DNA from: Stigmatella erecta
GTDB taxonomy: Bacteria; Myxococcota; Myxococcia; Myxococcales; Myxococcaceae
Length of the DNA: 64,000 nt
Assembly (NCBI RefSeq): GCF_900111745.1
Contig: NZ_FOIJ01000002.1
Span: 310,001-374,000, forward strand
Reading direction: 5' to 3'
Of the stretch, positions 50,293 to 52,161 are shown in pieces (within the stretch, counting starts at the first letter, position 1; each line of letters opens with the position of its first letter). The notes beneath the pieces were generated by a model that worked only from the letters and a program-made list of their open reading frames with translations, had not been told where the DNA came from and did not search any database. The translations under genes and the position numbers were made by a program.

Positions 50293-51249
50293 CTAGGCGA
50301 TGATGGCCGGCTTGCTTCGCGCCAGGACCTCGCGCCCCGTCAGCCAGGCCTGGTACAGCGGCGCAAAGCCAAACACCGAGAAGGTCAGCACCGCCATGAT
50401 GCCGCTGAAGAGCCACAGCCCCATGAGCAGGCCGATGCCCAGGTGCAGCCCCAGGGTGAGCGCCACCCACAACAGGCGCGTCTGGCGCGGCCAGACAAAC
50501 AGCGGATAGCCAATCTCAATCACCAGCGTGCTCCAGGTGACGAGCTTCGTGAGCAGCGGCACCGAGGCCATCCAGGCGAAGTCGAACTGCCCATACAGCG
50601 GCTGCATCAGGGCCTTCCATAGCGCCTCCCCGTCCTGCCACTGCTGGCCCAGCGCCTTCTCGACGCCCGTCGAGAGGTAGACGAGGCACAGGTGGAACTG
50701 GAGCACGCGCAGCGCCAGCGTCGCCAGGGGCGAGGGCGCATCGGACTCCCGCCCGGCCTTCACATCGAGCGAGAACGCGCTGCCCACGGGCATGATGACG
50801 CAGTAGGCAAGGCTGATGTGGGCGAAGATCTCCACCCCGTAAGCGAACATGCCCCCGCTGTTGATGAGCGTGGTGTGGGTCAGCCAGGCCACGAACGCGG
50901 ACAGCCGCGTCCGCCACCCGAGCAGCAGCCCCACGAGGCTCAGCACATACAGGACGCCCACCCCGTAGACGCACTCATCCGCGGAGAGGCCAAAGCGTTG
51001 CAGCACGGGCGCCAGGGTGCCCACCCGGGGCAGCCACGGGGCCGCCATCGGCTCGGAGATGGCCCACTGGATGAGCCCCTTGCTGCCGAAGAGCGCCAGC
51101 GCGCTGTCCGACAGCATCCACGTCTGGGCCAGCAGGATCAGCGCCACGCCTATCCGGAAGGCGCCCAGCGGATGGGGCGAGGAAGGGGCCAGCGCGAACT
51201 GGACGAGCCGCGGCCGGACCACCTGGGAGAACGCGTGTCGAAGGGTCAT
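50293..51249 (-). CDS. HTTM-domain membrane protein (vitamin K-dependent carboxylase-like)
   Basis: 318 residues with about six to eight TM helices. The HTTM (horizontally transferred transmembrane) pattern is seen in PLGAFRIGVALILLAQTWML, FGSKGLIQW, TLINSGGMFAYGVEIFAHIS and RVLQFHLCLVYLSTGVEKAL followed by GQQWQDGEALW. HTTM is shared with vitamin K-dependent gamma-glutamyl carboxylase, but bacterial stand-alone members mostly have no known activity, and this copy lacks the long luminal domain of the animal enzyme. Its ATG overlaps the stop of the preceding gene as ATGA, so the two are made together. A small secreted peptide is encoded upstream. Confidence 0.83.
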   Translation of the reverse strand: MTLRHAFSQVVRPRLVQFALAPSSPHPLGAFRIGVALILLAQTWMLSDSALALFGSKGLIQWAISEPMAAPWLPRVGTLAPVLQRFGLSADECVYGVGVLYVLSLVGLLLGWRTRLSAFVAWLTHTTLINSGGMFAYGVEIFAHISLAYCVIMPVGSAFSLDVKAGRESDAPSPLATLALRVLQFHLCLVYLSTGVEKALGQQWQDGEALWKALMQPLYGQFDFAWMASVPLLTKLVTWSTLVIEIGYPLFVWPRQTRLLWVALTLGLHLGIGLLMGLWLFSGIMAVLTFSVFGFAPLYQAWLTGREVLARSKPAIIA

Positions 51250-51788
51250 GGGACCACCGGGGCCAGGGAAGCACTGCGGGAGGAGGGACGGCGCTCGAGC
51301 ACGGCCCGGTACTGCTCCTTCCACTCGGGGCGCTCACCGGCGCGGTAGCCCTCCATCGACGGAAGGGCGAACGCATACACGATGACGGTGACCGAGCGGG
51401 CATCCGGGTGGCGCCCGAACATCGCCGCGCCCCAGGAGCGGGCCAGGGAGTCCTGGATGTCCTTCAGGGCGAAGCGGATCATCATCGAGTGAACCCGCAG
51501 GTTCATCTCCTCGTTCTCGGAGGTGAAATCATCCTGGATGATTTCACCCGAGGCCTTGCGGACCTCGAATGAGACTTTCGTCTCCGGGGCCACCCCGGGG
51601 GCGAAGAAGCTGAAGCGGCTGCTGGCTCCAGTCAACTGGGCATACGCCTGGACGAACCGTCCGGGAGTGCCCCAGTCCTTGAAAGGTTTCAGGTTGGCGG
51701 CGCTACACACCGCCAGGGCCAGATGAACCCCGGCGAGGAGCACCGCGACTTGATACTTGAGGGGGACCACGCTGCGGGGGGAGCTCAT
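51246..51788 (-). CDS. Unknown protein with N-terminal TM, partner of the HTTM protein
   Basis: 180 residues. A hydrophobic N-terminal helix (VAVLLAGVHLALAVCSAANL, about 14-33) anchors a soluble domain (35-165) containing FSFFAPGVAPETKVSFEVRK and LRVHSMMIRFALKDIQDSLA. HTTM genes are often paired with short TM-anchored proteins that have an F-x-F-F-A-P-type element, such as the DUF5819 group; this may be a distant member, but I cannot confirm it. The stop overlaps the HTTM start by four bases (ATGA). Upstream are a perfect hairpin and the peptide gene. Confidence 0.7.
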   Translation of the reverse strand: MSSPRSVVPLKYQVAVLLAGVHLALAVCSAANLKPFKDWGTPGRFVQAYAQLTGASSRFSFFAPGVAPETKVSFEVRKASGEIIQDDFTSENEEMNLRVHSMMIRFALKDIQDSLARSWGAAMFGRHPDARSVTVIVYAFALPSMEGYRAGERPEWKEQYRAVLERRPSSRSASLAPVVP

Positions 51789-51807
51789 GGCTGCTCCAAG
51801 TTCCGCA

Positions 51808-51838
51808 CGCCGGCGGGTGGAGGTCTCACCCGCCGGCG
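51808..51838 (-). promoter_or_regulatory. Perfect 11-bp hairpin between the peptide gene and its downstream genes
   Basis: CGCCGGCGGGT, a nine-base loop and ACCCGCCGGCG form an uninterrupted inverted repeat with 11 G/C-rich pairs. On the minus strand it lies about 70 bases after the peptide stop and 20 bases before the next ATG. No T run follows. Such hairpins can stabilise the upstream mRNA or act as partial terminators, giving more peptide than downstream protein. Confidence 0.6.
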
Positions 51839-51909
51839 CACAGGAAATCAGTTCATTTCAAAGCGGAGGGACTGCCAGCGTGCAGCGATTGTGTTTTCCG
51901 CGGCGCGCC

Positions 51910-52161
51910 TTACAGGGCGCCGAGGAAGTTGCCGATCAGCGTGCCGAGGAAGTTGCCGATCAGGTTGCAGCCCACCACGTTGCACTCGGGGAAATCGTCA
52001 CCCGTGGAGACAGGCTCCGTGCCCTCGGCGGTCTTGGAGACGAGGACCACCTCCTCGACCGGCACCGCCTCGCTGGACACGGGCGACTGGGCCATCACCG
52101 TCGTCGCACCGAACACCGCGCAAGCCACCGCCACCGACTTCCAGTTCTTCATCGCGTTCAT
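51910..52161 (-). CDS. Small secreted peptide with a duplicated hydrophobic C-terminus
   Basis: 83 residues. Signal peptide 1-24 (ends TTVMA/Q), leaving a mature 59-residue peptide. The first 30 mature residues are acidic and contain EAVPVEEVV and TGDDFPE. The end is CNVVGCNLIGNFLGT followed by LIGNFLGAL, an eight-residue duplication whose DNA is nearly identical. Two Cys (CNVVGC) could form a small loop. The AGGGAGGA ribosome-binding site ends seven bases before the ATG. It is followed by a perfect hairpin and then the TM-anchored and HTTM genes on the same strand. No family recognised. Confidence 0.68.
   Translation of the reverse strand: MNAMKNWKSVAVACAVFGATTVMAQSPVSSEAVPVEEVVLVSKTAEGTEPVSTGDDFPECNVVGCNLIGNFLGTLIGNFLGAL
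51919..51963 (-). repeat. Direct 21-base duplication in the peptide gene
   Basis: The 21-base sequence gccgaggaagttgccgatca(g) occurs at 51919-51939 and again at 51943-51963, a 24-base period. It encodes the duplicated LIGNFLG of the peptide. The near-identity of the two DNA copies indicates a recent duplication. Confidence 0.9.

Follow-up and report, generated by a model that had tools for sequence, protein, structure and literature searches.

What do HTTM membrane proteins do in bacteria, and on what do they act? SdpB-type and other bacterial HTTM proteins are related to the carboxylase of human clotting factors. In Stigmatella erecta (NZ_FOIJ01000002.1), a 64,000-nt stretch of DNA, here called the window, to whose positions all coordinates refer, contains an HTTM gene preceded by the genes of a membrane-anchored partner and a small secreted peptide, which raises the question of whether the two membrane proteins mature the peptide. 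A sequence-only reading of this locus had described the order of peptide, hairpin, TM protein, and HTTM gene, the latter two with an ATGA start/stop overlap, and all of these elements were located as described on the minus strand (Table 1; overlap at 51246-51249). Judging from the translations, the cassette is presumably flanked upstream by the gene of an inorganic pyrophosphatase and downstream by that of a GH18 chitinase. The answer that we favor, with somewhat more confidence than doubt, is an Sdp-like peptide-maturation cassette, in which the pair matures motif-bearing, membrane-active peptides, partly in trans.

Table 1. Features of the cassette in the S. erecta window
Feature	Position	Strand	Basis
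Peptide precursor gene, 83 aa and stop	51910..52161	-	ORF; homologues with conserved motif and variable tail; dN<dS
Signal sequence for Sec export, residues 1-24, with VMA preceding the predicted cut	52090..52161	-	Charged start, hydrophobic core, AxA-like site, by eye
Recognition-like motif EAVPVEEVVLVSK, residues 31-43	52033..52071	-	Best-conserved stretch among 18 precursors; nonsynonymous changes 0 (4 genomes)
Candidate mature peptide (residues 59-83): ECNVVGCNLIGNFLGTLIGNFLGAL, a hydrophobic tail with glycine zipper	51913..51987	-	Gly spacing 4 enriched
RNA hairpin, 17 pairs, 7-nt loop	51803..51843	-	Directly upstream of the partner gene's Shine-Dalgarno; T-run absent
FFAP protein gene, 180 aa, one N-terminal TM helix	51246..51788	-	ORF, AlphaFold model, adjacency to HTTM gene
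HTTM/SdpB-like polytopic membrane protein gene, 318 aa	50293..51249	-	TIGR04033 match; model; PDB matches
Lys198 codon, aligned to human GGCX catalytic base Lys218	50656..50658	-	Sequence alignment; numbering checked

The precursor combines a conserved motif with a hypervariable tail

As noted in the earlier reading, the 59 residues that follow the VMA cut have an acidic first half and end with the repeat LIGNFLG-T-LIGNFLG. The signal-sequence pattern was retained in all precursors compared, and in the window's clade it is followed by an (E)AVPxEEVVLVSK motif and a hypervariable tail. The dN/dS of the peptide gene was well below 1 overall, and the 13-codon motif showed four synonymous codon changes and no amino-acid change between the window and its same-genus relatives (four genomes). 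The peptide thus evolves as a coding gene, and the motif is under purifying selection. The segment EAVPVEEVV had been regarded as part of the mature product, which our comparison did not uphold, as this stretch belongs to the conserved recognition-like motif and the hypervariable part is the tail.

Glycines in GxxxG spacing occurred 153 times in the tails, versus 94.4 ± 6.6 in shuffled sequences (z 8.9; 20 precursors, which are related and not independent). Tail composition differed widely among precursors, some Corallococcus tails consisting of Thr/Asn/Gly repeats, and one common membrane activity is therefore not assured. In three Corallococcus precursors (L067, L068, L069), the long tails are strikingly regular xxGN/xxGT tetrapeptide repeats (NTTGNTSGNTTGN...).

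Searches of Pfam and NCBIfam with the peptide gave no match, SdpC included. An SDP-like C-x4-C disulfide was dropped as a candidate feature because it is not conserved and some precursors are free of cysteine. Weak matches (E about 1e-3 to 1e-2) of the peptide profile in other genera were discarded, as little aligned beyond the signal sequence.

Distant kinship of the HTTM protein with SdpB

Among the NCBIfam families, the HTTM protein matched SdpB (TIGR04033) with an E-value of 2.7e-12, its 46.9 bits lying far under the cut-off of 178.4 bits. All 15 aligned homologues, which come from three phyla, matched SdpB, and six of them matched PF05090 (HTTM); a Pfam search with the three S. erecta cassette proteins gave no match. 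An hhalign comparison of the HTTM family with SdpB of the sdp operon from the same genome and its relatives yielded 97.3%. By these sequence comparisons, the HTTM protein is related to SdpB, though divergent from it. The earlier reading had overlooked this relationship, as well as the additional precursors encoded outside the cassette and the second substrate class, both described below. Named matches of the HTTM family are from Corallococcus, Citreicoccus, Planctomycetes, and Bacteroidota. The same genome also carries a canonical sdpC-sdpA-sdpB operon on another contig (C19, about 59.9-62.2 kb; SdpB 375 bits, SdpA 173 bits).

A predicted GGCX-like fold with the conserved lysine

The AlphaFold model of the HTTM protein (pLDDT 91.4) was compared with the PDB by Foldseek, and the top 15 matches were all GGCX, with E-values from 5.4e-7. 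A VIA structure alignment superimposed residues 9-310 of the model on residues 32-327 of human GGCX (Z 21.9, 275 residues). As the HTTM alignment, when used as a profile against PDB sequences, gave no match, the link to GGCX rests on the predicted fold and one sequence alignment. In the latter, which covers GGCX 156-320, Lys198, invariant in 17/17 HTTM/SdpB sequences, is aligned to GGCX Lys218, which acts as the base in the deprotonation of vitamin K hydroquinone (PMC12589487). W223, G226, and H287 of GGCX were also invariant, and the position of Phe299 was matched, too. The counterpart of GGCX Lys217 is Glu197. N158/N159 have no conserved counterpart, and H160 has an ambiguous one, which one alignment places at H125. 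The connection to gamma-carboxylase that had been drawn from the sequence is thus in agreement with both the predicted fold and the retained lysine.

The HTTM protein stops at about GGCX residue 327, where the transmembrane domain of GGCX ends. It therefore has neither the propeptide-binding luminal domain nor Y395 and R436, which in GGCX assist in holding the substrate backbone and the side chain of Glu (PMC12589487). In comparison with GGCX, the transmembrane fold and the base Lys218 are present, and the full set of Glu-binding residues and the luminal domain are not.

These data bear on the possibility that the HTTM protein is a bacterial vitamin K-type carboxylase that converts the Glu residues of EAVPVEE to Gla. 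Such an activity would fit the fold and the conserved base, the retention of the second motif Glu in 17/18 precursors, and the fact that GGCX likewise recognizes its substrates through a propeptide (PMC12589487). However, besides the missing luminal domain with Y395 and R436 and the lack of a conserved counterpart of N158/N159 and of an unambiguous one of H160, several precursor tails contain no Glu or Asp at all, and the SdpB relatives are known for toxin processing, with no mention of Glu modification in the excerpts of PMC6818787 considered here. We regard Glu modification, which the sequence-only reading had brought up as the HTTM activity, as improbable.

Menaquinone, in chemical terms a form of vitamin K, is used by myxobacteria, which makes a GGCX-like quinol/O2 reaction possible. 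As the GGCX base for vitamin K hydroquinone is kept, the maturation chemistry may possibly depend on menaquinol and O2.

FFAP is an obligate neighbor, and the pair occurs with unrelated secreted proteins

The partner was predicted to consist of its N-terminal TM helix and a periplasmic alpha/beta domain (AlphaFold pLDDT 80.7), and is named FFAP here after a conserved F-F-A/S-P motif. No family of Pfam or NCBIfam includes it, and a comparison of its model with the PDB gave no fold match with an E-value below 0.001. Homology to SdpA was considered and rejected, since TIGR04034 gave no match (E up to 10; 15 homologues, E up to 1) and hhalign against a shallow SdpA profile yielded 0.1%. In our survey of 96 genomes of the family, 29 FFAP genes and 29 HTTM genes of this type were found in the same 20 genomes, and they were adjacent in 29/29 cases.

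Seven of the FFAP/HTTM pairs (six from Corallococcus, one from a genome of another genus) constitute a second clade and follow a gene for a secreted protein of about 150 aa that is unrelated to the zipper precursor and has the signature DFTQxDVDxIV...TFYIRLPTF...GTLP. Relatives of this protein also precede FFAP/HTTM genes in a planctomycete (E 5e-22) and in Pedobacter (E 1e-6, small set). Because the second clade pairs with an unrelated secreted protein, FFAP/HTTM seems to serve whichever secreted protein is encoded upstream. A further candidate substrate, again unrelated, is a secreted Gly/His-repeat protein (GHGHGHG...) encoded upstream of FFAP/HTTM in a planctomycete (L088).

Obligate adjacency alone would also fit an immunity or an export/anchoring device in place of a maturase. 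We give this alternative little credence, as the relationship to SdpB, the retained base Lys of the GGCX enzyme, the precursors' own Sec signals, and the presence of the same pair next to an unrelated secreted protein in the second clade all argue against it.

A broader reading, which we put forward tentatively and would rather bet against, is that FFAP/HTTM pairs are a general class of periplasmic peptide-maturation enzymes in Myxococcota, Planctomycetota, and Bacteroidota. In such enzymes, the HTTM subunit would modify or cleave different secreted precursors by menaquinol/O2 chemistry at the conserved lysine, much as GGCX employs vitamin K, and in the genus of the window one pair would reach several dispersed precursors through their common EAVPxEEVVLVSK motif.

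Co-occurrence and stand-alone precursors

A secreted precursor is encoded directly upstream in 20/22 HTTM loci of the window's clade, which agrees with the compact cassette described earlier; with HTTM pairs lacking the peptide amounting to 2/22, peptide and HTTM gene are co-conserved among the relatives. At the genome level, the HTTM clade and the precursor were found together in 19 genomes, only as a relic in 1, and neither was found in 76 (n=96; Fisher p 3.6e-19, the kinship of the genomes being ignored). In the relic, from Corallococcus (G073, contig C144, L066), the precursor start is fused in frame to an HTTM fragment, and one deletion therefore took out the tail, the partner, and most of the enzyme. 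In two loci, no precursor was detected upstream of the FFAP/HTTM pair. In L018/L086 and L043 (Citreicoccus second copy), the pair follows an RND efflux gene and may act in trans on a precursor.

Four genomes of the same genus, that of S. erecta included, have two extra precursors each, away from the cassette. Their neighborhoods, read in two genomes, are conserved and contain no FFAP/HTTM genes nearby. Within the genus, the extra precursors are confined to these four genomes, which have the pair, and no precursor was found in three same-genus genomes without it. Upstream of the stand-alone precursors (L099, L100, L102, L103), the 5' sequences are alike within each type (ATAGTG..., GAGAGGACCCACACATG) and could possibly contain shared promoter or leader elements.

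Profile searches for the immunity protein SdpI (PF13630) found none in the S. erecta genome nor in 8/9 other genomes, with control genomes positive, and beside the cassettes examined there was neither an immunity gene nor any neighbor conserved between genera. YIT relies on an immunity protein other than SdpI, and the absence of SdpI is therefore not strictly decisive for Sdp likeness. The pair could, in principle, mature peptides that are not toxins, namely surface, adhesion, surfactant, or developmental-signal peptides. The missing immunity genes would suit such products, as would the Thr/Asn/Gly-rich tails, and stand-alone precursors with one common maturase resemble a bacterium's own structural or signal set more than toxin-immunity units. 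Hydrophobic glycine zippers and SdpB kinship, however, suggest membrane-active peptides, and we consider non-toxin products unlikely, though deserving of attention.

Comparison with known systems and proposed mechanism

SdpC is secreted, and its processing to a hydrophobic toxin, which derives from the C-terminus, requires SdpA and SdpB; homologues of SdpC differ in this C-terminal domain (PMC6818787). The conserved motif and variable tail of the cassette precursors are, by analogy, reminiscent of SdpC. Like sdpABC and yitPOM of B. subtilis, which encode the SDP and YIT toxins, the cassette has three genes, among them those for a secreted precursor with a variable hydrophobic C-terminus and an SdpB-like membrane protein, and it shares the order of secreted precursor, TM protein, and SdpB-like protein with the canonical sdp operon of its own genome. 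Unlike in sdpABC and yitPOM, the precursor is unrelated in sequence and has a short pro-region, the middle gene is not recognizably sdpA, the HTTM protein remains far under the SdpB cut-off, SdpI is missing, and additional precursors are encoded elsewhere. As the features of SdpA and SdpC are thus not found and SdpI is absent, we do not assign the cassette to Sdp. Neither do we assign it to the carboxylases, where the Glu site and the luminal domain are lacking: with GGCX (PF05090 HTTM) it shares the transmembrane fold, the lysine, the positions of W223/G226, His287, and Phe299, and a substrate recognition segment, but in place of a luminal propeptide-binding or arch domain it has a separate TM-anchored partner. 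HTTM proteins are also encoded with ribosomal peptide precursors in linaridin clusters, for example CrdG of corynaridin (PMC9927463). Those clusters have dedicated modification enzymes, whereas the cassette has a Sec signal, the FFAP partner, and no other modification gene.

The best reading, by analogy, is that the cassette works like Sdp. The precursor would be exported by Sec and stay on the periplasmic side of the inner membrane, where the FFAP/HTTM pair would recognize the EAVPxEEVVLVSK motif from the periplasm and process or modify the precursor, thereby releasing or activating the glycine-zipper tail. As an antimicrobial peptide, or one of the cannibalism type, the tail would then act on membranes, and in this genus the single pair would also serve, in trans, the two further precursors elsewhere. 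The SdpB kinship, the sdp-like gene order, the co-occurrence, the distribution of the stand-alone precursors, and the zipper enrichment speak for this mechanism; the FFAP protein that does not resemble SdpA, the precursor outside all NCBIfam families, the lack of SdpI and of a conserved immunity neighbor, the heterogeneous tails, and the two pairs without an upstream precursor speak against it.

A search of the literature, preprints and subscription journals being outside its reach, found nothing on the cassette and no paper linking SdpB and HTTM. HTTM and SdpB are known families; new are the precursor family and FFAP, which are absent from Pfam and NCBIfam. With a short precursor, an obligate candidate-enzyme pair, and an invariant predicted catalytic lysine, the cassette is a small test system, in which the two extra precursors would allow action in trans to be addressed and related genomes lack everything. 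If the proposal is true, predatory bacteria have a further, new family of peptides, and the motif together with the FFAP/HTTM pair provides a handle for genome mining that present family libraries miss.

A conserved hairpin separates the precursor from the membrane pair

The hairpin between peptide and pair had been described as perfect with 11 bp. Its existence and conserved location were confirmed, and its size was revised to 12 Watson-Crick pairs (51808-51819/51827-51838), or 17 pairs when G-U pairs are counted (51803-51843). The 121-nt intergenic region has an MFE of -58.6 kcal/mol (z -3.9). A function as an intrinsic terminator was rejected, as there is no T-run and a terminator scan found none. 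We rather suggest that the hairpin would keep the precursor mRNA in excess of the FFAP/HTTM mRNA.

Each of the 17 pairs is retained across the four genomes of the genus, and seven of them vary, one by a two-sided change; with these four sequences, a shuffle control cannot distinguish the covariation from chance. GC-rich hairpins of unrelated sequence occupy the place between precursor and FFAP in 13/13 loci from four genera. When compared with 40 shuffles each, ten of these 13 exceeded all in stability, and the other three were beaten or equaled by 1-2 of 40. As variable pairs stay paired and all 13 loci have a positional equivalent, the hairpin is more than a chance feature. The loci of the second clade have almost no intergenic space at this position, and the hairpin therefore belongs to the small-peptide type of cassette.
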